A DNA stretch of 64,000 bases from positions 558,001 through 622,000 of the forward strand of contig NZ_CP049109.1 in NCBI RefSeq assembly GCF_011057975.1, given 5' to 3'. This DNA comes from Sphingosinithalassobacter tenebrarum (GTDB lineage Bacteria > Pseudomonadota > Alphaproteobacteria > Sphingomonadales > Sphingomonadaceae). The position numbers and the translations under genes were made by a program. Positions 14,372-35,001 of this stretch are shown one piece after another. The first letter of the stretch is position 1. Each line of letters opens with the position of its first letter. The notes beneath the pieces were generated by a model that had not been told where the DNA came from, did not search any database, and was given only the letters and a program-made list of their open reading frames with translations.

Positions 14372-14395
14372 TTTGATATAGAGATAGGACAATAA
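14372..14395. promoter_or_regulatory. Operator site A of the island regulon
   Basis: Imperfect palindrome TTTGATATAG-4-TAGGACAATA (approximate) between the divergent CoA-transferase and lyase genes. It matches site B (19570) at 19 of 24 bases by my alignment and shares the TTTGnT(A/C)TA half with the other sites. It ends 16 bases before the lyase ATG. I infer binding by the HutC-type regulator at 20.6 kb. Confidence 0.6.
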
Positions 14396-14411
14396 AGCAA
14401 GTAGAGGTTTG

Positions 14412-15368
14412 ATGGCTAGCGACATTCTGGTGAGCGAAGTCGGTCCGCGCGACGGATTGCAGAGCATCAAGACGGTCATGCCGACCGAGGCGAAAAAGGC
14501 CTGGATCGCGGCCGAAGCCGCCGCCGGCGTTCGCGAGATCGAGGTGGGAAGCTTCGTTCCCGCAAAGCTGTTGCCGCAGCTTGCCGACACGGCCGAAATC
14601 GTGGCCTTCGCGCGCGGCATAGCCGGGCTGACGGTCGCGGTGCTGGTGCCCAATCTGCGCGGTGCCCAGGCGGCGATTTCCGCGAAAGCGCATAAGCTTA
14701 CGCTTCCGCTGTCGGTTTCCGAATCGCATAGCATGGCCAATTTGCGGCGCACCCACGCGCAGGTGATCGAGGAAGCGCGCGGCATCGCCGCTGCCATCGC
14801 CGAATTGCCCGAGGAAGATCGTCCGCATTTCGAAGGAAGTCTCTCCACTGTGTTCGGGTGCACCATCGAGGGCGCGATTCCGCAGGGGCAGATCCTGCGC
14901 CTCGCCGAGCAGCTTATGGAAGCCGGCTGCGATGAGGTCGGGCTTTCGGACACGACCGGCTATGCCGACCCGGCATCGGTGAAGGCGATGATTCGCGCGG
15001 TGCGCGGCGCCGTGGGCGACGATGCCGTCACGGGCATCCATCTGCACAATACGCGCGGCCTCGGGCTCGCCAATGTGCTCGCCGCGCTCGACGCCGGTCT
15101 GGAAACGGTCGATTCGTCGCTGGGCGGGATCGGCGGCTGCCCCTTCGCGCCGGGCGCGAGCGGCAATATCGTCACCGAGGATCTGGTGTTCATGCTCCAG
15201 GCGATGGGGCTGAAGACCGGGATCGACCTGCCCAGGCTGCTCGAAGTGCGCGGAATCGTCGCCGATGCGCTGCCCGGCGAGCCGCTGTACGGCTTCACGC
15301 CCGACGCCGGGCTGCCGCTCGGCTTCATCCCCGAAAAGACCAATGCCAGACTGGAGGCCGCCGAATGA
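14412..15368 (+). CDS. HMG-CoA lyase-like enzyme (citramalyl-CoA lyase candidate)
   Basis: A 318-residue member of the HMGL/DRE-TIM family, cleaving a 3-hydroxy-acyl-CoA to acetyl-CoA and a keto acid. Arg13-Asp14 (VGPRDGLQ), His210 and His212 (IHLHNTRG) are the metal and substrate residues. Cys243 (GGCPFAPGASGN) is the catalytic loop cysteine. ATG 14412 is preceded by AGAGG. The (R)-citramalyl-CoA lyase of Chloroflexus belongs to this family, which fits the neighbouring hydratase and CoA-transferase. True HMG-CoA lyase activity remains possible. Its stop overlaps the amidase start (ATGA). Confidence 0.82.
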   Translation: MASDILVSEVGPRDGLQSIKTVMPTEAKKAWIAAEAAAGVREIEVGSFVPAKLLPQLADTAEIVAFARGIAGLTVAVLVPNLRGAQAAISAKAHKLTLPLSVSESHSMANLRRTHAQVIEEARGIAAAIAELPEEDRPHFEGSLSTVFGCTIEGAIPQGQILRLAEQLMEAGCDEVGLSDTTGYADPASVKAMIRAVRGAVGDDAVTGIHLHNTRGLGLANVLAALDAGLETVDSSLGGIGGCPFAPGASGNIVTEDLVFMLQAMGLKTGIDLPRLLEVRGIVADALPGEPLYGFTPDAGLPLGFIPEKTNARLEAAE

Positions 15369-16045
15369 CGATTGGAACGAAGATGGTGCGTGACGACCGG
15401 ACCGCGCGCGAGATTTTCGACGACGTGATGGCCAATCCCGCGCGCACCAAATTCGGGTTCGGCGATAAGCTTGCCATCGTGAATGTCGATTTCCAGAACG
15501 CCTATACGCGGATCGACGAATTCAAGACCGCGTACGAAACCGATCCGCGCCAGATCGAATATGCCAACACCATTTCGCGACTGGCGCGCGAAAAGGGGAT
15601 GCCGGTGATCTGGACCCATGTCGCGTACATGAAGGACGCGAGCGATGCCGGCGTCTGGGGCACGCGCACCGACACCCCCGATTCGCTGCAGAACATCAAA
15701 TATGGCTCGCGCCGCCACGCATTCGACGATCGCTGCGAAATCGATCACGACAAGGATGCGATCTACACCAAGCGCATGCCCTCGGCCTTTTTCGAAACGC
15801 CGCTGCAGAGCCTGCTCGTCTGGCACAAGGTCGATACTTTGGTGATCACCGGCGGTTCGACCTCGGGATGCATCCGCGCCACTGCGGTCGATAGCCTCAG
15901 CCGCGGCTATCGCACGATCGTCCCGATCGAAACCTGCGCCGACAAGCATGAAAGCTATCACTTCGCCAATCTCACCGACCTTCAGCTCAAATATGCCGAT
16001 GTCGAGCCGGTGCAGACGGTGATCGACTGGCTGGAGGCACGCTGA
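15365..16045 (+). CDS. Isochorismatase-fold amidase (half-amidase/maleamate amidase-like)
   Basis: A 226-residue cysteine hydrolase of the isochorismatase superfamily. The triad is Asp42 (NVDFQNAY), Lys136 (YTKRMPSAF) and Cys169 (STSGCIRATAVD), all intact. Close families include N-carbamoylsarcosine amidase and maleamate amidase (NicF). It is translationally coupled to the lyase before it and to the deacetylase-fold hydrolase after it. A reasonable role is hydrolysis of a substituted maleamate to the dicarboxylate and ammonia. No signal peptide. Confidence 0.82.
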   Translation: MTIGTKMVRDDRTAREIFDDVMANPARTKFGFGDKLAIVNVDFQNAYTRIDEFKTAYETDPRQIEYANTISRLAREKGMPVIWTHVAYMKDASDAGVWGTRTDTPDSLQNIKYGSRRHAFDDRCEIDHDKDAIYTKRMPSAFFETPLQSLLVWHKVDTLVITGGSTSGCIRATAVDSLSRGYRTIVPIETCADKHESYHFANLTDLQLKYADVEPVQTVIDWLEAR

Positions 16046-16986
16046 TGCGCGAAGGCGAAAAGGACCCCGGCCTTTATGATTTCCGGCCGTATCGCGACCG
16101 GACGAAGCTCGAATGGCCGGGCGGCAAGAAAGTCGCGGTTTGGGTGTCGCCCAATCTCGAATTCTACGAGATCGACCCGCCAGCCAATCCGCATCGCAAG
16201 AGCTGGCCCAAGCCGCATCCCGACATCGTCGGATACGGGCATCGCGACTATGCCAATCGCGTCGCGCACTGGCGCATGGCCGAAGTGATGGAAAAGCACG
16301 GCTTCAAGGGATCGGTGTCGCTGTCGGTCGCGCTGTGCCAGCATCACCCGGACGTGGTGGCCAATGCCAATGACCTGGGCTGGGAGTTCTTCAGCCACGG
16401 CATCTACAATACCCGCTACAGCTACGGCATGGATGAAGCGCAGGAACGCGCGATCATCGAGGATTCGATTCGGACGGTCCGCGATGCCACCGGCCAGACG
16501 ATCAAGGGCTGGCTTGCCCCCGCGCTCACCCACACGCCGCGCACGCTCGATCTGATCGCCGAATATGGCATGACCTATACCTGCGATCTCTATCACGACG
16601 ATCAGCCGGCGCCGGTGCGTGTGAAATCGGGCAAGCTCGTTTCGATGCCCTACAGCATCGAAGTGAACGATCATTACGGCTTCTTCGTCTACAACATGTC
16701 CCCGCGCGAATATGCCGAGACGCTGATGCGCCAATATGATCGGCTCGCCGCCGAAGCCGAGGCGAGGGACGGCCCCGGCGGCACGGTGATGTGCATTCCG
16801 CTGCACAGCTATCTGATCGCCCAGCCGCATCGCATCGGCCCGTTCGAGGATGTGCTGCGCCACATCGCTGCCGACGGTCGCGCCTGGATCACCCGGTCGG
16901 GCGACATCGCCGATCATTTCCTGTCGAGCGGCGGATATGACGCTGTCGCCGCCGACGCAGCCCGTTACGCAAAGGCAGACGCATGA
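16045..16986 (+). CDS. Polysaccharide deacetylase-fold hydrolase 1 (imidase/PuuE-like)
   Basis: A 313-residue NodB-homology protein without signal peptide or membrane anchor, so not a cell-wall deacetylase. The PEEP-like segment GWEFFSHGIYNTRY and the long W-x-P-G-G-K-K-V-A N-terminal strand resemble cytoplasmic allantoinases (PuuE) and cyclic imide hydrolases. ATG 16045 overlaps the amidase stop (TGATG). With the amidase downstream in the reaction order it could open a cyclic imide to a half-amide. Related to the next gene, though clearly diverged. Confidence 0.75.
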   Translation: MREGEKDPGLYDFRPYRDRTKLEWPGGKKVAVWVSPNLEFYEIDPPANPHRKSWPKPHPDIVGYGHRDYANRVAHWRMAEVMEKHGFKGSVSLSVALCQHHPDVVANANDLGWEFFSHGIYNTRYSYGMDEAQERAIIEDSIRTVRDATGQTIKGWLAPALTHTPRTLDLIAEYGMTYTCDLYHDDQPAPVRVKSGKLVSMPYSIEVNDHYGFFVYNMSPREYAETLMRQYDRLAAEAEARDGPGGTVMCIPLHSYLIAQPHRIGPFEDVLRHIAADGRAWITRSGDIADHFLSSGGYDAVAADAARYAKADA

Positions 16987-17912
16987 GCCTCGACTCCGCC
17001 TATCTCGAATATCCCAAGCGGCACGAGGGTATGGATCATGGCCTCTATACGCCCTCGCCGATGCCCAGCCGAAAGCCGGTCGCCTGGCCGGGCGGCAAGC
17101 CGGTGGCGGTGACGCTGCTGGTCAATCTGGAGTGGTTTCCGATCACGCCGGAGGACAAGCCGTTCCGCGCGCCGGGGCACATGGTCACGCCCTATCCCGA
17201 TTTCCGCCACTATACCGCGCGCGAATATGGCACGCGGGTGGGCTTTTACCGGCTGCTCGATGCCTTCGCCAAGGCCGGCGTGACGGCGACGATCGCAGTC
17301 AATTCGGCAATCGCCGAACGCTATCCGAGCATCATCGCCGATATCTTGGGCGCGGGGCACGAGATCATCGCGCATGCCACCGACATGAACGCGACGATTG
17401 CCTCGACGCTCGACGAGGACGCCGAACGGGCCATCATCACGCAAGCGCGTGACACGCTGGCGCAGGTGATGGGCAAGGCGCCGCGCGGCTGGCAGTCGAT
17501 CGCGCGGTCGCAGAGCTTCGATACGCCGCGGCTGCTCGTCGAAGCGGGGTTCGACTATATGTGCGACTGGGTGAATGACGATCTGCCCTGGGTCGCGACG
17601 ACCGATGCGGGCACGATCACCTCGGTCCCGTTCAACCATGAATTGTCTGACCGGCAGATGATCGCCGTTCAGCAGCATTCGATGGACAGCGTCGCGGTGC
17701 AGATCGAGGATGCGCTCGATTGGCTCAAGGCCGAGGCTGCGCAATATGGCGCGGGCCGTGTGCTGCCCTTCACGCTGACGCCGTACATCACTGGCCTGCC
17801 CTATCGCATGGATGCGTTCGAAGCGCTGCTCGGCCGGATGGCGAGCGACGAGGCGACCTGGTTCGCGAGCGCGGGGCAACTGGTCGACGCATGGAAGCCC
17901 CAGGCCGTCTGA
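16983..17912 (+). CDS. Polysaccharide deacetylase-fold hydrolase 2 (imidase/PuuE-like)
   Basis: A 309-residue cytoplasmic NodB-homology protein sharing the opening W-P-G-G-K-x-V-A-V pattern and overall length with the preceding protein. HEIIAHATDMN (about 121-131) is the metal/active-site region, and GWQSIARSQSFDTP corresponds to GWLAPALTHTP in its partner. ATG 16983 overlaps the previous stop (ATGA). Two adjacent diverged copies suggest either a heteromer or two related substrates. Last gene of the rightward unit, followed by an inverted-repeat element. Confidence 0.75.
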   Translation: MSLDSAYLEYPKRHEGMDHGLYTPSPMPSRKPVAWPGGKPVAVTLLVNLEWFPITPEDKPFRAPGHMVTPYPDFRHYTAREYGTRVGFYRLLDAFAKAGVTATIAVNSAIAERYPSIIADILGAGHEIIAHATDMNATIASTLDEDAERAIITQARDTLAQVMGKAPRGWQSIARSQSFDTPRLLVEAGFDYMCDWVNDDLPWVATTDAGTITSVPFNHELSDRQMIAVQQHSMDSVAVQIEDALDWLKAEAAQYGAGRVLPFTLTPYITGLPYRMDAFEALLGRMASDEATWFASAGQLVDAWKPQAV

Positions 17913-19511: not shown

Positions 19512-19569
19512 CACCAACTCCGTGCCTTGTGATGGAAAAAGATCATACTCGCGGGCATGGCGCAAGCAT

Positions 19570-19593
19570 TTTGTTCTAGAAGTAGGACAATTA
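19570..19593. promoter_or_regulatory. Operator site B of the island regulon
   Basis: TTTGTTCTAG-4-TAGGACAATT, about 60 bases upstream of the methyltransferase 1 start and overlapping the stop of the VOC gene. Nearly identical in layout to site A. Confidence 0.6.
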
Positions 19594-20523
19594 TCGCACT
19601 TCGATCAATTCAACCAGCTCCCCGGCAGGGCCGCGCAGGACGCAGCTGCGCCGGCCGCGATACACCGCCTCGTCGCGCGTGCCGGGCGAGCGGATCGCTT
19701 CCGCCGCAAACGGATCGATCGACTCGACTTCGAATGTCGCGACGGCATTGCCCGGCGGCAGATGGCCGGCGATCACCGGCCGTTCCGCGGCGGGGAAGCC
19801 CGGGCCGGTGGGATATGCGTCGAGCTCGACCAGATTGCCGCGCTGGCGCATGCCGATCGCGCTCAGCTCGACGGTCTGGTCGGGAGAAAGTCCCTGCGCG
19901 GCCTGAATGACCGCGACCTTGCTCTGGCGGACCGGGCGTTCGCGCAGCTCGAACTTGTCGACATACCAGCGCAGCAGCGCGTCGAAGTTCCGCCCCGCCA
20001 CGACGACGATGAAAGTGCGTCCGACGAATCCGGCGGGCGGCGGCAGGATCGAGCTTTCGCGATCGCCGCTTTCCATCGTGAAATACAGGCATTCATTCGC
20101 CGGACCGCGCACCTGCATCGCGACGATCGAAGGCATGAACTGGAGCGGGCGCGGCGGCCCGATGATCTCGAAGGGGGAATCGGTCAGTTTTTCGGCGAGC
20201 GTATGGACATCGTCGACGATGATCTCGAACGCGTTCCAGCCGAATGTGGTGAGCGGGCGATAGCCCGGCGGGGCGGGGGTTTCGACGAGCCGCGCGAAGA
20301 CATCGGTTTCCCCTTCGGGCGCCAGCGTCACCATCGCGGCGCCGGCAGCGGCGGGTGCGTCCCAGCTTTCCGCCAGCGATTGCGGCACCGTGCTCCGTTC
20401 GACCACGCGATAGCCCATATAGTCGCAATAGGCGCGTTCGGACGCGGCCATGTCGGGCGTCGCGGTGGTGACGGCGGCGATCCGCAGCAGTCCCGGTTGG
20501 GTGTCCGTGGTCCAGTCGCTCAC
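19591..20523 (-). CDS. Two-domain VOC protein (extradiol dioxygenase-like fold)
   Basis: A 310-residue protein with two VOC modules, about residues 12-155 and 165-308, the architecture of type I extradiol dioxygenases. The usual first metal histidine is not obvious: the opening strand reads LLRIAAVTTATPD. The closing Glu-rich strand GELVELIEV is present. Ring-cleavage activity is therefore uncertain. The start is GTG 20523 with GGAG five bases upstream; an overlapping ATG (ATGTGA) is out of frame and stops at once. Operator site C lies upstream. Confidence 0.7.
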   Translation of the reverse strand: MSDWTTDTQPGLLRIAAVTTATPDMAASERAYCDYMGYRVVERSTVPQSLAESWDAPAAAGAAMVTLAPEGETDVFARLVETPAPPGYRPLTTFGWNAFEIIVDDVHTLAEKLTDSPFEIIGPPRPLQFMPSIVAMQVRGPANECLYFTMESGDRESSILPPPAGFVGRTFIVVVAGRNFDALLRWYVDKFELRERPVRQSKVAVIQAAQGLSPDQTVELSAIGMRQRGNLVELDAYPTGPGFPAAERPVIAGHLPPGNAVATFEVESIDPFAAEAIRSPGTRDEAVYRGRRSCVLRGPAGELVELIEVR

Positions 20524-20574: not shown

Positions 20575-20598
20575 TTTGTTATATATCTATAGCAAATT
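20575..20598. promoter_or_regulatory. Operator site C of the island regulon
   Basis: TTTGTTATAT-3-TATAGCAAATT, the most symmetrical of the six sites: TTTG(T)TATA on the left mirrors TATAGCAAA on the right. It lies between the GntR gene stop and the VOC gene start, about 50 bases upstream of the latter. Confidence 0.65.
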
Positions 20599-20619: not shown

Positions 20620-21414
20620 TCAGAGCAGCTGAACTTCCCCGGACGGAGAATTGAGATCAAGGGTGATCTGATATTTGTCGGGGCGGAACTGCGCCAGGAT
20701 GTGCTGGACCGGGCGCCCGTTAATGTCTTCCACCGTGCGGCTGACGCGCAGGATCGGCGACCCGATATCGACCTGAAGGATCGACGAAAGCGTGGCATCG
20801 GCCAGCGTCGCCGAAATCGTCTGCCGGGCATGGCCGATCTGCACGCCGGCTTCGGAAATCAGCGTCAGTATCGGTGTCGACTTGAGCTTGGCGCGCGTCA
20901 TGCCCGCGCCGATATCGGTCGGCAGGAACGTGATGTAATGGCCGATCGGACTGTCCTCCAGCCAGCGGACGCGGCTGATCCGCAGCACTTGCGACCCGGC
21001 TTCGATCTGCAGCGCCTCGTCGATCGGCGCACGCGCGGGGACCGTATCGACCTCGAGCAGTTTGACGCGAGTCGTGCGGCCGAAGCTCAGCAGCGATTCG
21101 AGCGCCTGCTCGATATTGCCCTGAAAGGGCTTGGCCGGCGACTGGAAGATGACGGTGGTGCCGACGCGGCGCTTGCGTTCGACCAGATTATTCTCGGCAA
21201 GCTCGTCCAGCGCGCGGCGCGCGGTGATGCGCGAAACGCCGAATTGCGCGGACAATTCCTGTTCCGTCGGCAGCCGCGATCCGAACGCGCGTTCGCCGCT
21301 CGTGATTTCCTCGCGAAGCTGAAGGAATATCTGGTGGTACAAAGGTACCGCCTGCATCCGGTCCACCGCGACCGGTTCATCGCTTTCGATGGTCGTCAAC
21401 CCTGTCCCCATCAT
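20620..21414 (-). CDS. GntR/HutC-family transcriptional regulator
   Basis: A 264-residue regulator. The winged-helix GntR domain (about residues 20-90) shows PLYHQIFLQLREEI, SRLPTEQELSAQFGVSR and AL-DELAENNLV. It is followed by a UTRA ligand domain (about 105-260). HutC-type members usually repress catabolic operons until a pathway compound binds UTRA. The start is uncertain: two adjacent ATGs at 21414 and 21411 without a strong ribosome binding site, and an upstream TTG at 21468. It is the only regulator in the island and the best candidate for binding the six operator sites. Its own upstream region shows no clear copy. Confidence 0.85.
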   Translation of the reverse strand: MMGTGLTTIESDEPVAVDRMQAVPLYHQIFLQLREEITSGERAFGSRLPTEQELSAQFGVSRITARRALDELAENNLVERKRRVGTTVIFQSPAKPFQGNIEQALESLLSFGRTTRVKLLEVDTVPARAPIDEALQIEAGSQVLRISRVRWLEDSPIGHYITFLPTDIGAGMTRAKLKSTPILTLISEAGVQIGHARQTISATLADATLSSILQVDIGSPILRVSRTVEDINGRPVQHILAQFRPDKYQITLDLNSPSGEVQLL

Positions 21415-21896: not shown

Positions 21897-23114
21897 TCAG
21901 AGCGGCTGTTGCCGGGGGAGCGGCAGCCGCGTTCCCGCGATCAGCCCCAATGCCAGGCAGATGGCGGAGATCGTCAGCGCCGGGCCGACACCGACCCGGT
22001 CGGCCGCCATGCCCCAGATCAGCGATCCGATCGCCAGCCCGCCGAACGTGGTGGTCTGGTAGAGTGCGATGGTCCGGCCCACCAGCTCGCGCGGAGTGCC
22101 GAGCTGCAGCGTGACGTTGAAGGTCGACAAAGTCGAAACCCATCCCGCCCCCGCCGCAAGATGCGCGATCACCGCGACCGGAATCGACTTTGTCAGCCCC
22201 AGCGCGGCGATGGCGAGCAGGAATATCGCGATGCCGCCGCGCAGCACCGCTTCCGCGCCGAAGCGGTCGCGCAGCGTGACCGCGGCGACGGCGCCGCCCA
22301 TCGCGCCCACGCCGAAACAGCCGAACAGGATGCCGAGCAGATCCGGCCCGCCGTCGAGCCGCACCGCCACCACCGGCATCAATCCCCAGATGGCGGCGGC
22401 GCTGAGGCTGAACATCGCCGCGCGGATCAGCAATGCCCGCGTGTGCCGGTGCGTGACGCCATAGCGGAATCCCTCCGCCAGCACGGCCCAATAGCCGCTA
22501 TGGCGGCGTTCGGACTTTTCGGGGCGCCAGCGCCAGAGCACGGTGATGATCGCCAGATAGGACAGGGCATTGGCCAGGAAGGCGAGCGTGGCGCCCGCCA
22601 CAAGCACGATCGCGCCGCCGATCGCCGGGCCCAGGCTGCGCGCGACATTGTTGCCGACGATGTTGGCCGCCACTGCCGAGGATATCTGCGCGCGCGGGAC
22701 GAGCTCGCCGACCGAGGCCTGCCATGCCGGCCAGTGGACGGCGGTGCCGCATCCGATCAGGAAGGTGAGCGCAAGCAACAGCATCGGCGTCAGCGCGCCG
22801 AGCGCCGCCAGGGCCGCCAGCAGCGCCGAAAGCAGCAGCATCGCGAATTGCGCGCCCAGCATCACGCTGCGCCGGCTGAAGATATCGGCAAGCGCGCCCG
22901 CCGACACCGCGAACAGCATCGTCGGCAGGTTCGCCGCCGTCTGCACCAGCGACACCATCGTCGCCGACCCCTCGAGCTGGACCATCGCCCAGCTGGTCGC
23001 GACGACCTGGATGAAAGTGCCGAACTGCGAAACGATCGTCGCCGCCCACATCGCCCGGAAGCGCGGGATGCGCAGCGGCTCGGGCAATCGGGCAAAGGCG
23101 CGGCTGACGATCAG
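21897..23114 (-). CDS. MFS exporter-like transporter (MFS_3/EntS type)
   Basis: A 405-residue protein with about 12 hydrophobic helices and the loop GALADIFSRRSVML after helix 2, as in EntS-type efflux proteins. The most likely start is the CTG at 23114, which overlaps the SDR stop (CTGA) and has GAGGAA five bases upstream. A TTG at 23087 is an alternative. Upstream reading is SDR shadow. Last gene of the leftward unit that begins with the TonB receptor. It may export a toxic intermediate, which is inference. Confidence 0.75.
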   Translation of the reverse strand: MIVSRAFARLPEPLRIPRFRAMWAATIVSQFGTFIQVVATSWAMVQLEGSATMVSLVQTAANLPTMLFAVSAGALADIFSRRSVMLGAQFAMLLLSALLAALAALGALTPMLLLALTFLIGCGTAVHWPAWQASVGELVPRAQISSAVAANIVGNNVARSLGPAIGGAIVLVAGATLAFLANALSYLAIITVLWRWRPEKSERRHSGYWAVLAEGFRYGVTHRHTRALLIRAAMFSLSAAAIWGLMPVVAVRLDGGPDLLGILFGCFGVGAMGGAVAAVTLRDRFGAEAVLRGGIAIFLLAIAALGLTKSIPVAVIAHLAAGAGWVSTLSTFNVTLQLGTPRELVGRTIALYQTTTFGGLAIGSLIWGMAADRVGVGPALTISAICLALGLIAGTRLPLPRQQPL

Positions 23115-23962
23115 TGCATTTCCTCGCCGCCCGAGACGTTCATCGCCTCGCCGGTGATGTAGCGCGCCTGGCCGGAGCAGAGGAACGCGCAGGCATTGGC
23201 GGTATCCGAAGGCTCGCCGACGCGGCCGAGCGGAATACGGCCGCGCATCGCCGCAAGATATTCCTCGAGCGTCTGGCCGCGCGCCTTCGCCATATATTCG
23301 TTCTGCCAGCTGCCCAGCCCGGTGGTGACGTGATTGGGGCAGACTGCGTTGACGGTAATCTGTTCGGGGCCCAGCTCGATCGCCGCCGAGCGGGTGAGGC
23401 CGACAATGCCGTGCTTCGACGCGATGTAGGATGATGTCAGTGCCGAACCCGATTTCGACCCGCGACTGCCGATCGAAACGATGCGGCCACGGCCCCAGCC
23501 TTCGACGATATCCTGCTTCTGCATCTGGCGAACGGCGTGCTTCATCGCGAAAAAGGCGCCGCGCAGATTCACGTTGAGGACCGTGTCCCACATTTCCTGC
23601 GTCGCATCGACCAGCGGCCCGAACAGATAGCCGACTCCGGCATTGTTCACGAGGATGTCGAGTTTGCCATAGCTGGCAACGGCATGGGCGACCATCGCCT
23701 CGATTTGCGCTTCCTCGCGCATATCGGCCTGGAAGGTCGTGACGTCGGGATTGATCGCGCGCAGGTCCTCGGCGACCGCGGCCATTTCCTCGCTCGCGCC
23801 GACTCCGTGCGCAGGCGCCATGTCGCCCTTGGTCTCGCCCAGGTCGTGGAGCACCAGCTTGACGCCGTCCTCGGCCAGCTTGCGGGCAATGGCTTCGCCC
23901 AGCCCCTTGCGGCGCCCGGCGCCGGTGACGATCGCCACCTTGCCTTCCAGATCGGGATACAT
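23111..23962 (-). CDS. Short-chain dehydrogenase/reductase
   Basis: A 283-residue classical SDR. TGAGRRKGLGEA binds the cofactor, NNAGVGYL is the strand-4 motif, and Ser with YIASK supplies the catalytic Ser-Tyr-Lys, all intact. Of two ATGs in frame (23968 and 23962), the second is chosen: AAGGAG lies only one base from the first but seven from the second. It follows the Old Yellow Enzyme gene after 11 bases and overlaps the MFS start. It likely oxidises an alcohol or reduces a ketone in the island pathway. Confidence 0.85.
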   Translation of the reverse strand: MYPDLEGKVAIVTGAGRRKGLGEAIARKLAEDGVKLVLHDLGETKGDMAPAHGVGASEEMAAVAEDLRAINPDVTTFQADMREEAQIEAMVAHAVASYGKLDILVNNAGVGYLFGPLVDATQEMWDTVLNVNLRGAFFAMKHAVRQMQKQDIVEGWGRGRIVSIGSRGSKSGSALTSSYIASKHGIVGLTRSAAIELGPEQITVNAVCPNHVTTGLGSWQNEYMAKARGQTLEEYLAAMRGRIPLGRVGEPSDTANACAFLCSGQARYITGEAMNVSGGEEMH

Positions 23963-23973
23963 GGTCATACTCC

Positions 23974-25953: not shown

Positions 25954-25956
25954 GGA

Positions 25957-26250
25957 TCAGCGCGGTTCGTGCGCGCGCAGCACCCGGCGGAGGAATTGCT
26001 GGGTCCAGGCGGAGCGCTCCGCCTCGGTTTGCGCGCTCGGGCTATAGGCCTCGATCTCGTCGCGGCTGACGCTGCCCTTTTCGTCGAGCAGCCGCTCGAT
26101 CGTGTCGACGCGTTCGCGCAGCGCGGCGGTTTCGGCCATCAGTTCGAGCAGGAAGGTCATCATCTGGTCGACTGCGGGATCGTCGTAGAATTGCGACCTT
26201 TTGCCCTTGGCGGCGCGGGGCAGTTTCACCTGTTCGTCCTGACCGGCCAT
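25957..26250 (-). CDS. Small helical protein 2 of the island
   Basis: A 97-residue protein with a basic N terminus and two helices. Residues 34-56 (LLELMAETAALRERVDTIER) match the coiled-coil pattern of the small protein at 18049-18381, as does the later TEAERSAWTQQFLRRVLR. ATG 26250 has GGAAAGG ten bases upstream. It follows the TonB receptor terminator and precedes the Old Yellow Enzyme gene by three bases. Function unknown; position suggests an accessory protein for that enzyme. Confidence 0.65.
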   Translation of the reverse strand: MAGQDEQVKLPRAAKGKRSQFYDDPAVDQMMTFLLELMAETAALRERVDTIERLLDEKGSVSRDEIEAYSPSAQTEAERSAWTQQFLRRVLRAHEPR

Positions 26251-26266
26251 GCTCGAAAACCTTTCC

Positions 26267-26302
26267 AAAAAAAAGCGGCGGGAGGCCGGTAAGCCCCCCG
26301 CC
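26267..26302 (-). terminator. Intrinsic terminator after the TonB receptor gene
   Basis: On the minus strand a GC hairpin (GGCGGGGGGC..GGCCTCCCGCC) is followed by GCTTTTTTTT, ending 17 bases upstream of the next start codon. It would end most TonB receptor transcripts and let a fraction continue into the enzyme genes. Confidence 0.8.
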
Positions 26303-26322
26303 GACTCGGGTTCGCTACGATA

Positions 26323-28650
26323 TCAGAAGTCGTAGCGTGCGCGTGCCATCCAGCTACCCGGCTGGTTCAGATACGGGTAGATCAGGAACGAAGTGCGATA
26401 GACTTCGTCGAAGCAGTTGGAGCATTCGAGCGTCAGCGACACGTTCGACGGCATGCGGAAGGTCAGGCCGGCGTTGAAGATGCTGTAGCCTTCCTGGAAA
26501 CCGCGCATGTCGTTCGACGTCGACACCCAGGTGTCCGACACATAGCGCCAGTTCACCGACGGCGTGATGCTGTACCCGCTGCCAAGCTCGGCGGTGTAGT
26601 TGAAGCCGAGCGTGGACGTGAAGTCCGGCGCGCGGGTCGGATCGGCGATCTCGCCGTCCGGCGTGACGATGCTGTTGTTGCAGCTGCCGGCAACCCCGTT
26701 CAGACAGTCCTGCTGCTGGGCAAGCGTGCCGGCATTGACGTTCTTGTACGTCGCATGCTGCAGGCCGGCCGACCAGTAGATGTTGAGGTTGCGCACCGGC
26801 GAAACGGTGACTTCGGCTTCCAGACCATAGTTTTCGAGGTCGGCGACGTTGCGCGTCAGATAGGTGATCGTGCCCGTCGTCGGATCGAGACCACCGCCCG
26901 GAAGCTGCTGGTCATAATCCATGAAGTAGAAACCGGTCAGATTGACCCGCAGCATCCGGTCGAACCATTCGGAACGGACGCCCGCTTCATAGGACCAGAT
27001 GGTTTCCTGGCTGAAGGGCTGGATGCCGGTGGCGTAATAGGCGCGGGCATTCCAACCGCCCGCCTTGAAGCCGCGCGTGGCCGAGGCATAGACGTTGAGG
27101 TCGGGATTGAACTCATATTGCAGCGCGAAGCGCGGCGTCCATTCCTTCGACTTCTGCTCGACCGGGATACCCGCGTCGATCAGGTCCTGCGTGCTGAACG
27201 GAACGTACAGCGGGTTGCCGGCGGGCAGCGGGCTGTCGTTCGGCGTGTAGGCAACGTCCTTGGTTTCGTCGGTGTAGCGGATACCGGCGGTGAAGGTCAG
27301 CGCCGGAGTCAAATGGAAGTCGCCCTGGGCGTAGCCGGCAAAGTCCTCGATGTCGTTGAAGACGGTGCGGTCGGCGCTGCGGGTGGCATTCGCCCGGCCC
27401 GAAAGCGGCAGCAGGCTGTTGACGAAATTCGTCTCGTTCGTCTCGTTGAAGTAGAAGACGCCCGCCACGTAATCGACAAAGCCGCCGAACGCCGAACCGG
27501 TTACCTTGATTTCCTGGCTGAACTGCTTGTGCCAGCTGTCATTCGCCAGCGGCGTCGAGAAACCGCGCGACGAAGAGACATAGTTGATGCCGTCGAGCAC
27601 CAGCGAGGAGCTGCTGACACCGGCGAAGCTGTCCGTCAGGAATTCCTGATAGAGGTGGCGATAGCCGGTGATGAAGTTCAGCGTGGCGTTGCTGCCCAGC
27701 GTGACTTCGAAATCCGACGCCAGGGCATAGGATTCGGCCGTGTTGCCGAGCGTGTTGTCCGCGAGTTCCTCGGAAACGAGGTCCGCTCCGATCGCCTCGT
27801 CGGTCCGCAGCGGCGTGAAGCTGATGCGGCGATCGTTTTCGGCATCGTAGAAGTGCGGCAGGTTGTTGTTCGACGAATTGACATATTCCGCCGACACGTC
27901 CCAGGTCACGTCCGGGGTCAGATAGGCACGGACCGCTCCGCGGAAACCATAGCTTTCCTCGCCGTTCAGCTTTTCGCCGGTCGTCAGATTGTCGACATAG
28001 CCGTCAGCCGAGATGTAGTAGGCCGAAACCTTGGTCAGCACATCGGCGCTGATCGGCAGATCGACCGAGCCGCGCAGCTGGACGCGATCATAGCGGCCAT
28101 AGCCGGCTTCCATGAACCCGGTGAATTCGTCGCTGGGCTTGCGCATGACGACGTTGATGGCGCCACCGGTGGTGTTCTTCCCGAACAGCGTGCCCTGCGG
28201 ACCGCGCAGCACTTCGATGCGCTCGACATCGAAGAAGGAGAAGTTGTTGGCGCCCTGGCGTGCGATGTAGATGCCGTCGACATAGGAGCCGATCGGCGGA
28301 TCGAAGGTCGAAATAGATTCGGTGTTCGAAAGACCGCGCATCGCATAGGCGTTGGCGGTGCCGACCGACGTGTTGTTGTGGCCGATCAGGTTGGGAACAT
28401 AGTTCACCAGATCGAGCGTGTTGGTGATCTGGCGCTCGGCCAGGTCTTCGGCCGAAAAGGCGCTGACTGCGATCGGAACATCCTGCAGCCGCTCTTCGCG
28501 ACGCTGTGCGGTAACGACGATTTCATTGGCCATGCCGGCGGCCGTATCCTGCGGATCGCTCGCACCGGTAGTTGTCTGGGCATGGGCGGAAGCGCTCGAA
28601 AGCAATACCGCGCCGACGAAGAACGCTAGTTTAGAAGTACGCTGGACCAT
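26323..28650 (-). CDS. TonB-dependent outer membrane receptor
   Basis: A 775-residue receptor with a signal peptide (residues 1-24, cleaved after SAHA), a TonB-box-like EIVVTAQRREE, a plug domain (LRGPQGTLFGKNTTGGAINV) and a beta barrel ending in the aromatic ARYDF. It imports a scarce or bulky solute across the outer membrane using TonB energy. Sphingomonads use many such receptors for organic carbon sources. ATG 28650 follows GGGGAG. Operator site D lies about 90 bases upstream, so uptake is probably co-induced with the pathway. Confidence 0.92.
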   Translation of the reverse strand: MVQRTSKLAFFVGAVLLSSASAHAQTTTGASDPQDTAAGMANEIVVTAQRREERLQDVPIAVSAFSAEDLAERQITNTLDLVNYVPNLIGHNNTSVGTANAYAMRGLSNTESISTFDPPIGSYVDGIYIARQGANNFSFFDVERIEVLRGPQGTLFGKNTTGGAINVVMRKPSDEFTGFMEAGYGRYDRVQLRGSVDLPISADVLTKVSAYYISADGYVDNLTTGEKLNGEESYGFRGAVRAYLTPDVTWDVSAEYVNSSNNNLPHFYDAENDRRISFTPLRTDEAIGADLVSEELADNTLGNTAESYALASDFEVTLGSNATLNFITGYRHLYQEFLTDSFAGVSSSSLVLDGINYVSSSRGFSTPLANDSWHKQFSQEIKVTGSAFGGFVDYVAGVFYFNETNETNFVNSLLPLSGRANATRSADRTVFNDIEDFAGYAQGDFHLTPALTFTAGIRYTDETKDVAYTPNDSPLPAGNPLYVPFSTQDLIDAGIPVEQKSKEWTPRFALQYEFNPDLNVYASATRGFKAGGWNARAYYATGIQPFSQETIWSYEAGVRSEWFDRMLRVNLTGFYFMDYDQQLPGGGLDPTTGTITYLTRNVADLENYGLEAEVTVSPVRNLNIYWSAGLQHATYKNVNAGTLAQQQDCLNGVAGSCNNSIVTPDGEIADPTRAPDFTSTLGFNYTAELGSGYSITPSVNWRYVSDTWVSTSNDMRGFQEGYSIFNAGLTFRMPSNVSLTLECSNCFDEVYRTSFLIYPYLNQPGSWMARARYDF

Positions 28651-28738: not shown

Positions 28739-28762
28739 TTTGTTATAGTCTTATATCATTAA
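28739..28762. promoter_or_regulatory. Operator site D of the island regulon
   Basis: TTTGTTATAG-4-ATATCATTAA upstream of the TonB receptor. It shares TATAGTCTTATATC with site F apart from one base, and the TTTGTTATA half with site C. Confidence 0.6.
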
Positions 28763-28836: not shown

Positions 28837-29691
28837 TTATGCCGTGTTCCCGTCGATGGTTTCCGACTGTGCCGTTTTGGCAACACTGTTCAAAAAGGTA
28901 GCGACCGGCACCCACCATTCGGTGATTCGGTCAAGCACCATGCCGGGGCCGCCGGGCAACTCGGCATAGTTCCAGTCGGGGCGCGCCTCGCGCAGCCGGG
29001 CGGCGGACGGGAACACCGCATCGGTGCGGCTGCCGATGATCAGCGTCGGGGCCGAAATGCGCGGCACTTCGGCTTCGAAGTCGAACAGCGGGATCACCGA
29101 ATGGCCATGTTCCTTCCACGGACCATGCAGGAAATAGGAGACGACGCCGATATGAACGGTTTCGTCGCTCCAGTCCTTGTCGCCGACGCGTTTCACCCAT
29201 TCCCACCGGTCGCTGATGTGCCTGCCGTCGGGCGCGATTTCCTGATTGTCGGGGAAGCGGCCGATGCGCGCGGCGCGGTCCTCGGCGGACATGAACGGCG
29301 CATTGTCGAGGATCAGCGCGCGAACAAGCTCGGGCCGGTCGGCAGCGAGCTTGCCCGCGGCGAGCCCGCCGCCGCGATGGCCCAGCACGATCGCGGGCGC
29401 GACGTCGAGCGCTTCGATCAGCGCGGCTGTTGCCTGCGCATAGGCTTCGATCGACGGGGTCGTGGGGGGATCGGACATGCCGTGCGCGGGCAGGTCGATC
29501 GCGATCGCGCGGAACCCGGCCCGCGCGATCAGCGGCAGCGCGTGGCGGAATTGGATCGAAGACCAGGGGGCCTGATGCACCAGCACGACCGCCGGGCCTT
29601 CGCCCATGCTGCGATAGTGAAGCTGGCCGTCCGGCCCGTCGACATAGCCGCGACGTTCGCCCGGCAGTGCCGTCATGATCGGCAGCGTCAT
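28837..29691 (-). CDS. Alpha/beta-hydrolase-fold protein lacking Ser and His of the triad
   Basis: A 284-residue alpha/beta-hydrolase fold protein. The nucleophile elbow reads GHRGG (104-108), with Arg106 where Ser is expected. The late catalytic His position reads GGPGMVLD with Pro249. The acid Asp224 (SRTDAVF) remains. Normal ester or C-C hydrolysis is therefore unlikely; it may bind, isomerise or act by another mechanism. ATG 29691 overlaps the stop of the flavoprotein gene (ATGA), so the two are coupled. Related to the secreted protein at 31269-32228 by QxPWSxxQ and the GMSD segment. Confidence 0.8.
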   Translation of the reverse strand: MTLPIMTALPGERRGYVDGPDGQLHYRSMGEGPAVVLVHQAPWSSIQFRHALPLIARAGFRAIAIDLPAHGMSDPPTTPSIEAYAQATAALIEALDVAPAIVLGHRGGGLAAGKLAADRPELVRALILDNAPFMSAEDRAARIGRFPDNQEIAPDGRHISDRWEWVKRVGDKDWSDETVHIGVVSYFLHGPWKEHGHSVIPLFDFEAEVPRISAPTLIIGSRTDAVFPSAARLREARPDWNYAELPGGPGMVLDRITEWWVPVATFLNSVAKTAQSETIDGNTA

Positions 29692-31136
29692 GCCGGTTCT
29701 CCCATCGGGATCATCGCTTCGCCGAGCAGCCGGCCGAAGGTCATCGCCGGCGTCACCATCATGCCACCGCACGCGGCCTTGCCCATCGTCTGGCTCGAGC
29801 CGAGAATCTCGCCCGCGGCATAGAGATTGGGGATGGCGCTGCCGTCGTGACGGATCACGCGCAGCCGCGCATCGACCGCGAGGCCTATCGCGCTCGAGAT
29901 CGAACTGGCCTGCATGCGGATGGCGTAGAAAGGACCCTTGGCAATCGGCAGCGGCGCGTGCTGCCGTCCGAAAAAGTCATTGCCGGTCAGCACGCCGTAG
30001 TTGAAGCCGGCAACCGAGGTTTCAAGGCCCGAGGCATCGATTCCCGCCTTCGCGGCCAGTGCCTCGATACTGTCGGCGCACAGGAATGCGGGGCCGCCGC
30101 GATCGAACGCGGCCCTGATGTCGTCGCGCGACCAGCCGACGATCATCGGCGGCGCTTCGTTCAGGATCGCGTCGTCGAACACGATCCAGTAGCGGTTCTT
30201 CGGCTGGAACAGCAGCGCCATTTCGCGCGCGTCGACGCTTTCAACGTCCTCGCGGACGAAGCGGGCGCCGTTGCTGTTGACGTAGATTTCCCACGGCTTT
30301 CGACGCTCGGGGAAATGTTCGATCCGGCCGGTCATCCGCGCGGGGAAATCGTCGGTGTCGAACAGCGTGCCGAAATTGACGAACAGATTTTCCTCGCCGC
30401 GGGCATAGCCGCCGACCGATTCGCCGAGCATCAGCCCCGCCCCGCGCGACCATTGATAGGGGGCAGCATTATATTGCGGATAGCCGTTGCGCTGCTCGAA
30501 CATCTCGGGATTGCCGGCATAGCCGCCACAGGTGAGCAGCACCGCAGCGGCGGAAATCCGGTGCGTATCGCCATCGGCATCGCGCGCGACCAGGCCGGTC
30601 ACGGCGCCCAGATTGTCGGTGGTCAGGCCGGTGACTTCGTGGCGCAGCGCGACAGTCAACTTGCCTTCGGCGACGAGCCGATCGACGATCGGGATCAGCA
30701 CGTCCTTGACGCTGATCCCGCCCTCGGCACCCCAGTAATAGCGGGGCAGGCGATAGGCTTCGTGGCCGAAGCCGGTGACCGGGTGTTCGGGCAGCGGCTC
30801 GAACCCTTCATCCATCAGCCAGTCGAAGGTTTCGGCGGCGTTTTCCACGGCCAGGCGGACGATGTCGGGATTGGCCGTGCCGCGGCTGATCCGCATTACG
30901 TCCTCGTAATGCAGCTCGGCGCTGTCCTCGATCCCGCGTTCGCGCTGCAGCCGCGTCCCGGCCGCGCTCATCTGGCCGGTGGCGACCCAGAGCGACCCGC
31001 CAAGCTGGTCGGCATATTCGAGCAGCAGCACGCGCGCGCCGCGCCGCGCGGCAAAGATCGCCGCGGGCAGCCCCGCCGATCCGCCGCCGACAATGGCGAT
31101 GTCCCAACGGCCGCCCAGATCGTGCTCGCTTGCCAT
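29688..31136 (-). CDS. FAD-dependent oxidoreductase, fumarate reductase/ketosteroid dehydrogenase family
   Basis: A 482-residue flavoprotein. DIAIVGGGSAGLPAAIFAARRG binds FAD near the N terminus, and the C-terminal NLYAAGEILG...ACGGMMVTPAMTFGR segment closes the FAD site. The family includes flavocytochrome c fumarate reductase, 3-ketosteroid 1-dehydrogenase and tricarballylate dehydrogenase; it desaturates or reduces bonds next to carbonyls. ATG 31136 is chosen; a GTG at 31148 is possible, and one at 31172 lies too close to operator site E. First gene of a unit with the alpha/beta-fold protein. Confidence 0.85.
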   Translation of the reverse strand: MASEHDLGGRWDIAIVGGGSAGLPAAIFAARRGARVLLLEYADQLGGSLWVATGQMSAAGTRLQRERGIEDSAELHYEDVMRISRGTANPDIVRLAVENAAETFDWLMDEGFEPLPEHPVTGFGHEAYRLPRYYWGAEGGISVKDVLIPIVDRLVAEGKLTVALRHEVTGLTTDNLGAVTGLVARDADGDTHRISAAAVLLTCGGYAGNPEMFEQRNGYPQYNAAPYQWSRGAGLMLGESVGGYARGEENLFVNFGTLFDTDDFPARMTGRIEHFPERRKPWEIYVNSNGARFVREDVESVDAREMALLFQPKNRYWIVFDDAILNEAPPMIVGWSRDDIRAAFDRGGPAFLCADSIEALAAKAGIDASGLETSVAGFNYGVLTGNDFFGRQHAPLPIAKGPFYAIRMQASSISSAIGLAVDARLRVIRHDGSAIPNLYAAGEILGSSQTMGKAACGGMMVTPAMTFGRLLGEAMIPMGEPA

Positions 31137-31184
31137 CCCGTTGCTCACTCCATGCCCTGAAACAAATTGCACGTTACCATCTTA

Positions 31185-31208
31185 AATGTTCTATCTTTAT
31201 ATCAAATC
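31185..31208. promoter_or_regulatory. Operator site E of the island regulon
   Basis: AATGTTCTAT-4-ATATCAAATC between the divergent flavoprotein and secreted alpha/beta-fold genes. The half TGTTCTA matches site B and the half ATATCAAAT matches inverted site A. One site could control both directions. Confidence 0.55.
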
Positions 31209-31268: not shown

Positions 31269-32228
31269 ATGTTTCAAATGCAGAAATGGCAGTTGCTGGC
31301 GTGTTCCGCGGCCCTGATGATCGGTACGGTGCCCGCCGCACAGGCACAGACTGCGTGCCCGGCTGAAGGCACGGCCAGCGCCGAATGGATCGGGCTGAGC
31401 CAGCTCCACGGCGGCAAGGGCTATGCCGACACGCCGATGGGGCAGGTGCATTATCGGCTGGCCGGTGAGGGGGAGGGGCCGGTGATCGTGCTGCTGCATC
31501 AGACGCCCTGGTCGATGGTGCAATATGCCGAGGTGCAGGCGTGCCTCGCCGAACGCGGCGTGCGGTCGCTGGCGATCGATACGCCGGGCTATGGCATGTC
31601 CGACATGCCCGGGGGGCATCCGACGATCGCGCAATATGCGGACAATCTGATTCCCGTGCTCGACAAGCTGGGGCTCGATCGCGTGATCCTGGCCGGCCAC
31701 CATACCGGGGCGAGCATCGCCGCGTCCTTCGCCTCGCGACATCCCGACCGCACGGCGGGCCTGCTGATGCACGGCACGCCGCTCTATAGCCGGGCCGAGC
31801 GCGAGACGCGGCTATCCGGGACGCACCGCACTCGCGACCTCAGCGAGGATGGCAGTCATCTGTCGGAATATTACGCCTATATCCGCAACTATGCCGGGCC
31901 GAATCCGCGCACCAGGATCACTGCCAACTGGTCGACGATCACCTGGTGGCTTTCGGGCGTCGCCGATGTCGCGCACGAAGCGGTGTATCTGCACGATCTG
32001 GGCGAGGATCTGGACCGCGTGATCGCGCCGACCATGATCTTTTCCGACGCGCAGGATTCGCTCCATGTGAACGATCAGCGTGCCGCTGCGCTGAAGCCGT
32101 GGTTCGGCTACACGCAATTTTCCGAAGGCGGCGCGCATGCGATGATGATCGACCCCGCGCGCTGGGCACGGCTCGCCGCCCGGTTCGTCGGCGAGGTTGC
32201 GGACGGAAGCGCCCCGGCGGGCGATTGA
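31269..32228 (+). CDS. Secreted alpha/beta-hydrolase-fold protein with His at the nucleophile position
   Basis: A 319-residue protein with a Sec signal peptide (residues 1-26, cleavage after AQA), so it is periplasmic. The elbow reads GHHTG (143-147) with His145 in the Ser position; Asp263 and His290 (GGAHAMM) of the triad remain. This GHHTG pattern occurs in a subset of the fold whose chemistry I cannot name. ATG 31269 follows AGGGAG. Divergent from the flavoprotein unit across operator site E. It may process the substrate before uptake across the inner membrane. Confidence 0.8.
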   Translation: MFQMQKWQLLACSAALMIGTVPAAQAQTACPAEGTASAEWIGLSQLHGGKGYADTPMGQVHYRLAGEGEGPVIVLLHQTPWSMVQYAEVQACLAERGVRSLAIDTPGYGMSDMPGGHPTIAQYADNLIPVLDKLGLDRVILAGHHTGASIAASFASRHPDRTAGLLMHGTPLYSRAERETRLSGTHRTRDLSEDGSHLSEYYAYIRNYAGPNPRTRITANWSTITWWLSGVADVAHEAVYLHDLGEDLDRVIAPTMIFSDAQDSLHVNDQRAAALKPWFGYTQFSEGGAHAMMIDPARWARLAARFVGEVADGSAPAGD

Positions 32229-32248: not shown

Positions 32249-33616
32249 TTACGCCAGCGTGGGCGCCGCTCCCGGCGTCTGGGTGGGGTCGATCGTGTCT
32301 TCCGGTTCGGCCCGGGTGCTCGCGGCCATCTCCTCGGCCAGCTTGCGATAGTGATGGAAGCCGAGGAAGACCGTGAGGATCGAGGGAATTCCGACCAGCA
32401 GCACAAACCCGCACAGCACGACGCCGATCGATGCGGGATTGCCCGACCAGTCAGTCGCCGCGCCGATCAGCGGCGGGCCGATCAGCGGGCCGACCAGCGT
32501 GATGATCGCATTGAAGATCGCCACCGAGCGGCTGCGCATTTCGCCGGGCGTGATCATCTGCAGCGCGGCGGGGCCGCCGGCGGTCGCCGCGGACTTGCCG
32601 ATGAATGCCAGGAACATCGCGACGATTGCCAGTTCGGGCGTCGGCAGGATCGGATAGAGCGCGCTCATCGGCACGGTGATGCACAGGCCGAGCATCAGTG
32701 TGCGCATGCCGACCAGATCGGCATTCTTGCCGAGGAACTTGCCTGCCCAGAGCGCCAGCGCGGTGCCGAGCGGCCCGGCAGTGAAGTAGAACAGGCCCGT
32801 CACGGCGCCGATCGTGGCGACGTCCCAGCCCCAGACACGCTCGAACAGCGGCACGTTCCAGACGGTGAGCGTGCTCATTGCGAAGTTGCAGGTTCCGCCG
32901 ACGATCAGCACGCCAAAGCCCTTCCACCGGTCGAGCATGTAGCGCACGGCGCTCATCTTGGCGGCTTCTTCCTCGTTCGCGCTGATCGTGTCGCGCTTCT
33001 TGGGTTCCTTCACCGTCAGCATCAGCAGCCCGAAGATGAAGCCGGGAACGCCGACGAGCAGGAAGGTCATCTGCCACGGCGCGAATTCCCGACCGAGGAT
33101 GGTGACATGCCCGACGTCATGGAGCGCGGCGACCAGCATGCCGCCGACCAGAAAGGCGAGTCCGGCGCCGAGATAGGGACCGGCCATATAGAGGCTGATC
33201 GCCCGTGCGCGCCCCTCGCGCTTGAAATAGTCGCTGATGATCGAGACCGAGCAGGGGCTTACCACCGCTTCGCCGATGCCGAGACCCAGGCGCAGCAGCA
33301 GCAGCGGCAGGAACGACATGGCAAAGCCGCTCATCGTCGTCATCGTGCACCAGATGAAGATGCCGAGGATCAGCATCCATTTGCGGCTCGTCTTGTCCGC
33401 CATCACGCCGAGCGGCACCGTTACCGCGACATTGAAAAGCGAGAAGGCCGGACCGAGCAGCAACCCGATCTGAAAGTCGGTAAGCCCGAGCGATTCCTTG
33501 ATCGGCCCCACCACCAGCGAAAGGATGAACCTGTCGAAATAGGACAGGATGAATACCAGCAGGAGAAGTATGACGACATACCAGCGATAGGCCGTGCTCT
33601 TGGGTTCGCTCGTCAC
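32249..33616 (-). CDS. MFS transporter, spinster-like
   Basis: A 455-residue, 12-helix transporter. The N terminus YRWYVVILLLLVFILSYFDR and the loop GVMADKTSRKWML after helix 2 place it in the spinster-like group often found in sphingomonad catabolic clusters. It starts at GTG 33616, preceded by GGGG; the overlapping ATG (ATGTGA) is out of frame. It lies 67 bases downstream of methyltransferase 2, probably on the same transcript from site F. A likely role is uptake of the growth substrate across the inner membrane. Confidence 0.85.
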   Translation of the reverse strand: MTSEPKSTAYRWYVVILLLLVFILSYFDRFILSLVVGPIKESLGLTDFQIGLLLGPAFSLFNVAVTVPLGVMADKTSRKWMLILGIFIWCTMTTMSGFAMSFLPLLLLRLGLGIGEAVVSPCSVSIISDYFKREGRARAISLYMAGPYLGAGLAFLVGGMLVAALHDVGHVTILGREFAPWQMTFLLVGVPGFIFGLLMLTVKEPKKRDTISANEEEAAKMSAVRYMLDRWKGFGVLIVGGTCNFAMSTLTVWNVPLFERVWGWDVATIGAVTGLFYFTAGPLGTALALWAGKFLGKNADLVGMRTLMLGLCITVPMSALYPILPTPELAIVAMFLAFIGKSAATAGGPAALQMITPGEMRSRSVAIFNAIITLVGPLIGPPLIGAATDWSGNPASIGVVLCGFVLLVGIPSILTVFLGFHHYRKLAEEMAASTRAEPEDTIDPTQTPGAAPTLA

Positions 33617-33683
33617 ATATTTCCCCTGCTCTGACCGGCTTCAGGCGCCGGTGATGTTGGTAATTCCCCCGGTCGCCCGACGC

Positions 33684-34889
33684 TTATTCGGGCAGGCTGC
33701 TGCCGAACACGTACCAGCCGCCCTTGCCGTGACGCGGACGTCCCGGTTCGTCCCAGTCGAACTCGCTGTGGCGATCGGGATAGCTGTTCACGTCGGGCAG
33801 GATATGCGCGAAGCTGCGCCCGGCATCGAACCCGGCTCCCTCGCACAGCGCAATCGGATCCTGCGCGCGAAAGGCAGTGTAGAAGGGTTCGTTATTGTGC
33901 TCGGTATCCCAGTTCCAGAAATAGTCTTCCCACGGATCGACCAGGTTCGACGCGGGCAGTTCCTGATGCACCATCAGTCCGCCGGGCCGCAGCAAGCGTC
34001 GGCATTCGGCGAGCACGTTGCGCGTCGCCTTGACCGGAATTTCGTGGAAGAAGAAGCTCGATACGATCAGGTCGAAATGCTGATCGGGGAAGTCGAGCTG
34101 CTCGGCATTCTGCTGGCTGAAATGGATCGGCACATCCATGTGCTCGGCAATCGCATGGCCCCAGCGCAGCAGCGGCGCGCCGACATCGACGCCGTGGATT
34201 TCGGCCTCGGGAAAGGCATCGGCATAGGGGATCAAGTTCTTCCCCGATGACGTGCCCAGATCGAGGATGCGCAGCGGCCGGAAATCGGGGCGCTTGTGCT
34301 TGATCCAGCGGCTGATCACGCGCGCGACGCCGCCCCAGCTGCGGAAATTCATGCTCGCGCTGAAGACGCGCGCGCCAAGGCTTACGACCGCGCCCTGCGC
34401 GACATCGTCCTCGATCCATTCGGAATGGAAACAGCCCGGCGTCAGATGCACGTCGAGCGCCGTGACATAGCGCGGAATTTCAAGATCGGGGTCGAGCCGC
34501 AGCGACCCGCCCGCCGGATTGCGCTCGGCGGCGTCGCGGGCAACCGCAATCATCTCGGGCAGGGCGCGCTCGACTTCGTCCTGCACCGACAGGAAGCACA
34601 TTTCCTGCGCATTGTAGCGAAGCGCGCTGTAGAGTTGGTAGCTCGGTTCTTTTTCCATCGCGGCGTCGATCGCGCGGGCCGAATCGAACACGGTGCCGCG
34701 CGCTTCGGCGGCGGGCCGTATCCGCGATTCGAAATCGTCGTGAACCGCTTCGGGCATATCCTGAATCGCATAGCGACGCAGCGCGCTGGCGAAGCGCTGG
34801 CGCCCGCGTTCGTCGAGCGTCGGATGCGCGAGCGATTCGATATCCGGGATGGCGGAATTCTGGCGATCCGATGTCGTGTCCACGGCCAT
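33684..34889 (-). CDS. SAM-dependent methyltransferase 2 with long N-terminal domain
   Basis: A 401-residue protein related to the one at 18381-19511. An N-terminal domain of about 200 residues contains TALDVHLTPG (143-152), matching DVDIHLQPG in its relative. The class I methyltransferase domain begins at about 205 with LDLGTSSG (209-216) and includes FFFHEIPVKATRNV, aligned to HNLMHEIGEEKRRKM. ATG 34889 follows GGAGGTG. Why a catabolic island needs two such enzymes is unclear; O- or N-methyl transfer within the pathway, or protection from an intermediate, are options. Confidence 0.8.
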   Translation of the reverse strand: MAVDTTSDRQNSAIPDIESLAHPTLDERGRQRFASALRRYAIQDMPEAVHDDFESRIRPAAEARGTVFDSARAIDAAMEKEPSYQLYSALRYNAQEMCFLSVQDEVERALPEMIAVARDAAERNPAGGSLRLDPDLEIPRYVTALDVHLTPGCFHSEWIEDDVAQGAVVSLGARVFSASMNFRSWGGVARVISRWIKHKRPDFRPLRILDLGTSSGKNLIPYADAFPEAEIHGVDVGAPLLRWGHAIAEHMDVPIHFSQQNAEQLDFPDQHFDLIVSSFFFHEIPVKATRNVLAECRRLLRPGGLMVHQELPASNLVDPWEDYFWNWDTEHNNEPFYTAFRAQDPIALCEGAGFDAGRSFAHILPDVNSYPDRHSEFDWDEPGRPRHGKGGWYVFGSSLPE

Positions 34890-34977
34890 GATGCACCTCC
34901 GTCCTTGGCGACTGCCGAGCGGCGGCTGGGACGCTTTTCGCTTGACCTCGTGCCGCTCTGGAGCGTTTACGCCTGTT

Positions 34978-35001
34978 GAATAGTCTTATATCTAGTACAA
35001 A
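34978..35001. promoter_or_regulatory. Operator site F of the island regulon
   Basis: Read on the minus strand: TTTGTACTAG-4-AAGACTATTC, matching site B at about 18 of 24 bases. It sits between the divergent methyltransferase 2 and monooxygenase genes and overlaps an in-frame ATG at 35001, one reason to prefer the downstream GTG start of the monooxygenase. Confidence 0.55.

Follow-up and report, generated by a model that had tools for sequence, protein, structure and literature searches.

GntR-type regulators of the HutC subfamily, among them HutC, PhnF, YvoA/NagR and DasR, combine a GntR winged helix with a UTRA domain, and in this subfamily one palindrome may be common to divergent operons, with the regulator encoded among its own targets (PMC4494728). 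The norm for their operators is GT-N4-AC, with FarR, NagQ and SdhR named as exceptions, the SdhR operator being a palindrome with additional symmetry (PMC4494728). In operators of the YtrA subfamily, the GT and AC lie far from the dyad centre (PMC4494728). The C-terminal domains of YtrA proteins are short, and these regulators act mostly on genes for ABC transporters.

The locus described here belongs to a window of 64,000 nucleotides, the whole stretch of Sphingosinithalassobacter tenebrarum DNA that was analysed. It encodes a protein with the winged helix and UTRA domain of the HutC group, and it shares with that group the use of one palindrome between divergent operons and a regulator gene among the putative targets (PMC4494728). 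The palindrome, present six times, does not conform to GT-N4-AC, which is typical of the subfamily without defining it; it is wider than this norm (PMC4494728), its outer G and C being 14 bp apart and its centre almost always 4 bp long. Like the SdhR operator it is a long AT-rich palindrome outside the subfamily norm (PMC4494728), a likeness of operators only, but its sequence and spacing differ from those of SdhR. It recalls YtrA-type operators in its distant outer bases, whereas the protein of the island has a UTRA domain and would control catabolic genes. Most probably (probability about 0.85), judging by sequence comparisons, the six palindromes are operators of this GntR/UTRA protein, which would most likely repress nine transcription units until released by a ligand.

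Palindromes and transcription units of the island

The original prediction placed six related AT-rich sequences in the promoter regions of the island, and all six are present there. Aligned on their dyads, they constitute one 22-bp palindrome, TTTGNTATA-N4-TATANCAAA (Table 1). The 24-mer first given for site F, from 34978, begins 2 bp ahead of the palindrome register, and this site matches the earlier consensus form on the minus strand. Sites A and B were confirmed to be identical at 19 of 24 bases; the 13-base core attributed to D and F is a real common 13-mer, but its placement with respect to the dyad differs by 6 bp between the two sites. Site B overlaps the final base of the stop codon of the VOC gene.

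Table 1. Transcription units and candidate operators of the island (window positions; operator scores from the symmetrised matrix)
Feature	Position	Strand	Remarks	Score (bits)
CoA-transferase family III, LeuC-like and LeuD-like hydratase subunits	11122..14320	-	lower-pathway core, first arm; start ATG 14320	
Candidate operator A	14372-14393		between CoA-transferase unit (-) and HMG-CoA-lyase-like unit (+)	31.4
HMG-CoA-lyase-like, isochorismatase-like, two PuuE-allantoinase-like hydrolases	14412..17912	+	lower-pathway core, second arm; start ATG 14412	
MT1 (methyltransferase-like) and 110-aa protein	18049..about 19511-19565	-		
Candidate operator B	19570-19591		upstream of MT1 (-)	30.0
VOC-family protein	19591..20523	-		
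Candidate operator C	20575-20596		upstream of VOC gene (-), just downstream of gntR	35.6
GntR regulator, UTRA domain (HutC subfamily)	20620..21414	-	proposed binder; PF00392, PF07702	
TonB-dependent receptor, 103-aa protein, OYE-type flavoenzyme, SDR, MFS transporter	21897..28650	-		
Candidate operator D	28739-28760		upstream of TonB-receptor unit (-)	29.3
FAD_binding_2 flavoprotein and alpha/beta hydrolase	28837..31148	-	flavoprotein start uncertain: 31136 or 31148	
Candidate operator E	31185-31206		between flavoprotein (-) and alpha/beta hydrolase (+) units	31.1
Alpha/beta hydrolase	31269..32228	+		
MT2 (methyltransferase-like) and MFS transporter	32249..34889	-	MT2 33684-34889	
Candidate operator F	34980-35001		between MT2 (-) and FAD monooxygenase unit (+)	27.2
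FAD monooxygenase, arylmalonate-decarboxylase-like, aldehyde dehydrogenase, SnoaL-like	35022..38935	+	start GTG 35022	

The six sites are real and far beyond chance. With a symmetrised matrix built from the six window sites they scored 27.2-35.6 bits, as compared to 13.2 bits for the next non-overlapping match in the window and 17.7 bits for the best of 20 first-order Markov simulations; in leave-one-out scoring each omitted site still reached 20.3-31.9 bits and ranked within the top six. The pattern WWWGN3TAN4TAN3CWWW, allowing at most one mismatch, recovered exactly the six in the window (0.18 expected), and none of 100 shuffles reached six. In the complete genome of 3,859,475 bases (3.86 Mb) the exact matches to this degenerate pattern are the same six and no others, in keeping with the earlier remark that none was noticed elsewhere. 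A further 27 places in the genome match with one mismatch; the best two of these score 22.4 bits, below all six sites. Since the reversed control pattern is commoner at one mismatch genome-wide (87 versus 33), information is to be drawn from exact matches alone.

Start codons and Shine-Dalgarno sequences were inspected to set the unit starts, and for the FAD monooxygenase the GTG (with AAGGGG) was preferred over ATG 35001, which falls on operator F. By this reading nine promoters face the six sites, one more than the eight units proposed earlier, at distances of about 20-90 bp from site to start codon; the gntR promoter of this island is without a site. That the GntR protein is the only regulator present was borne out among the island ORFs scanned. 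A promoter and terminator consensus scan gave 3 promoter-like sites against 3.5 expected, and promoters were not locatable; tRNA and Rfam scans of the window gave no matches.

MT1 and MT2 are paralogues (31.5% identity), as are the 110-aa protein and the 103-aa protein (25957-26268). The structure model of MT1 has a mean pLDDT of 86.2, and a Foldseek comparison of this model with the PDB gave class I methyltransferases as the best matches and no clue to the substrate. Homologous pairs of a methyltransferase-like and a small protein lie near the core genes even where the core is without the operator (L161-L163, L165, L166). A gene for an HbpS-like protein (haem-binding type; 21414-21881) is divergent from gntR and also present in L033, L034 and L059 (partial query), and an additional ATP synthase gene set (42054-47637) is found just past the island.

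Geometry and conservation of the palindrome

Among 125 distinct sites outside the window, chosen by the window matrix at a threshold of at least 18 bits, 115 keep both the outer G and the outer C. Equating these bases with the GT and AC of the family is an assumption; GT occurs in at least one half of 113 of the 125 sites and the full GT-N12-AC in only 30. Clade loci amounting to 718 kb contain 86 sites with a 4-bp centre and 0-15 for any other centre length between 0 and 10 bp; at lengths of 2 and 6, part of the count may come from the same sites read with the frame shifted. In the control regions, no site with a 4-bp centre was counted, and other centres gave 0-1. At position 5, the halves of the sites outside the window agree less than shuffled halves (0.31 versus 0.46), with A favoured in one half and T in the other; shared ancestry may account for this, as may asymmetric binding.

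Conservation at the sites exceeds that of their flanks for A (0.95 versus 0.74), B (0.79 versus 0.65), C (0.91 versus 0.54) and D (0.84 versus 0.53), each in 12 aligned loci, for E (0.90 versus 0.54; 10 loci) and for F (0.89 versus 0.70; only 3 loci), a comparison that favours the site since the aligned rows were picked for having a visible one. Ten pairs of palindromes offset by 8 bp, forming double sites of 30 bp, occur in nine loci (L047-L051, L053, L055, L056, L121). Some of these pairs precede gntR or a TonB-receptor gene, and in eight of the ten both members score at least 18 bits. The double sites recall the extra half-boxes reported in PMC4494728.

Co-occurrence of the sites with a GntR clade

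The GntR protein scores 72.6 bits against PF00392 and 108.6 bits against PF07702, both above the cut-offs, and thus has the N-terminal winged helix and C-terminal UTRA domain that define HutC-subfamily membership. Its scores against the curated NCBIfam models for HutC (TIGR02018, 111.4 of the 220 required) and PhnF (TIGR02325, 125 of 156.8) lie below the cut-offs, so that by these models it does not qualify as an orthologue of either. All 21 relatives carry the recognition helix VSRITARR, as do L042, L120 and L121, whereas the 15 control UTRA-GntR proteins lack it. In the contact numbering of PMC4494728, the clade has Gln, Glu, His or Met at position 28 in place of the usual Arg, and Arg in place of the usual Gly at wing position 59. 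As distinctive marks of the clade these two positions were rejected, since Arg is missing at 28 in 12 of the 15 controls and present at 59 in 7 of them, and only the whole helix was taken as evidence. For the more remote GntR relatives found in Cupriavidus and Azospirillum, the wing reads GxGTFV and no site exceeds 13 bits.

A gntR gene at E<=1e-60 is present in 22 of 397 genomes of the family, the own genome included; ten of the gntR loci were taken from named genomes. When related genomes were scanned, as the original prediction had proposed, with the matrix built from the window alone, sites of at least 20 bits were identified in 18 of 21 short loci around clade relatives in other genomes, in none of 15 loci of other UTRA-GntR genes (from 14 of the clade genomes) and in none of 18 control regions totalling 358 kb, counts that are not independent because the loci are related by descent. 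With longer stretches around the clade gntR, a site was found in 20 of 21. An equal frequency of the motif away from the island, which would have spoken against it, was sought in the genome and the control regions and was not found. A stricter pattern is matched in 20 of the 22 genomes with gntR versus 39 of the 375 without (Fisher's test, 2.2e-16); these 39 look like background, since about 50 of the 397 genomes (hand count) match the reversed control.

The most telling test of the GntR protein as the putative binder is a comparison in which the pathway gene is held constant. The isochorismatase-like core gene occurs at 73 places in 72 of the 397 genomes, and 30 of these places were covered: a site lies upstream in 20 of 21 genomes with the GntR clade versus one of nine without a clade GntR at E<=1e-60. 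The single miss (G289) has no HMG-CoA-lyase gene in front, and its site is ahead of the TonB-receptor gene that precedes the core genes. The single extra (G178) is explained by a 40%-identical GntR protein about 13 kb away with the same recognition helix, VSRITARR, and RRRRVGT. Seven of the nine genomes have some GntR match at E<=1e-15; the helix was read in five of these, and that of the four other than G178 differs. One genome (G052) encodes a GntR protein with the same helix and has no site in 20 kb, no core gene and no exact match to the strict pattern in the genome. In another (G320), gntR and the core genes are on separate contigs, the core genes accompanied by two strong sites, so that site and GntR are linked by more than proximity.

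Compared over many genomes, the sites thus follow the GntR clade in its presence and absence, consistent with the regulator first put forward as the candidate. It is highly unlikely that the palindromes are bound by another transcription factor, encoded elsewhere, with gntR merely a neighbour. The spacing unusual for the HutC subfamily (PMC4494728) and the missing autoregulatory site of the island gntR would fit such a factor, but with the pathway gene held constant the sites track the clade in different genera and on plasmids, a site does lie upstream of gntR itself in the relatives L022, L023 and L028-L030, and the scanned island ORFs include no second regulator. Still more improbable, to the point of being negligible, is that, rather than operators, the palindromes represent elements of promoters or AT-rich sequence that arose by chance: their TATA-like stretches do lie within AT-rich intergenic DNA, but against this stand the fixed 4-bp centre, the lack of any other exact match in the genome or of any match of at least 20 bits in the control regions, and their absence from eight of the nine orthologous operons without the clade protein. 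The assignment of the sites to the GntR protein is strongly supported by these sequence relationships. Points that weigh against it are the bare gntR promoter of the island, the siteless genome G052, the two one-mismatch places of 22.4 bits, the common descent of the loci and a spacing unlike that of most HutC-subfamily operators (PMC4494728).

Proposed regulation and content of the regulon

In the proposed mechanism, a GntR dimer would bind each 22-bp site, one subunit per half, across the fixed 4-bp centre. With the sites some 20-90 bp ahead of the start codons, protein bound there would sit over promoters, so that GntR most likely represses the nine units. Release, and with it derepression, would follow when the UTRA domain takes up a ligand, probably an intermediate of the pathway. 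HutC-type proteins are mostly repressors, which, together with the scant room left for a promoter downstream of the sites about 20 bp before the HMG-CoA-lyase-like and FAD monooxygenase starts, argues against the protein binding these sites as an activator or a dual regulator; this would seem unlikely, though the variable distance between site and start and the promoters that could not be located leave it some room.

The regulon that GntR would control comprises a constant and a variable part. The lower-pathway core, with both arms, is kept at about 45-97% identity, while the upper modules vary. The core is also borne on the plasmids pJE1 (7 sites) and pTomTYG65b (6 sites), and on an Acidiphilium plasmid with weaker sites, the best of 21.1 bits. 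Its neighbours on pJE1 are a further LeuCD pair and a gene of the isocitrate-lyase/PEP-mutase family, a combination that may parallel dimethylmaleate hydratase and dimethylmalate lyase. A RedY/HapK-like gene (PF11639, E 2.3e-08; L120:33075-33395) is also part of the regulon as it occurs on pJE1.

Within the core, the hydrolases resemble PuuE allantoinase (6.6e-23) and N-carbamoylsarcosine amidohydrolase; these and the LeuC-like match, as family assignments, would fit a cyclic-imide route. Taken together with the pJE1 neighbours, the core assignments suggest a route of cyclic-imide opening, half-amide hydrolysis, hydration, CoA activation and lyase cleavage. A more speculative and rather doubtful extension is that the clade has a geometry new to the HutC subfamily (the wide 22-bp operator and, in some relatives, the 30-bp double site) and governs a horizontally moving modular regulon, the core of which would degrade alkylmaleimides through imide hydrolysis, half-amide hydrolysis, LeuCD-type hydration, CoA transfer and HMG-CoA-lyase-type cleavage, with upper modules generating these imides out of pyrrole compounds, for example bilins derived from chlorophyll or haem. 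In searches of an open-licence library, none of the listed titles and abstract beginnings described this cluster or operator.

A GntR protein with its operators is a known kind of system; what is new here is a candidate operator of such width in the HutC subfamily, together with a conserved regulon that is carried in part on plasmids. The analysis links an uncharacterised GntR clade to its candidate operator across sphingomonad genera and plasmids. The operator may serve as a search key for genes of an uncharacterised degradation pathway, including those on other replicons, and the clade offers a tractable case for how GntR proteins alter half-site spacing.
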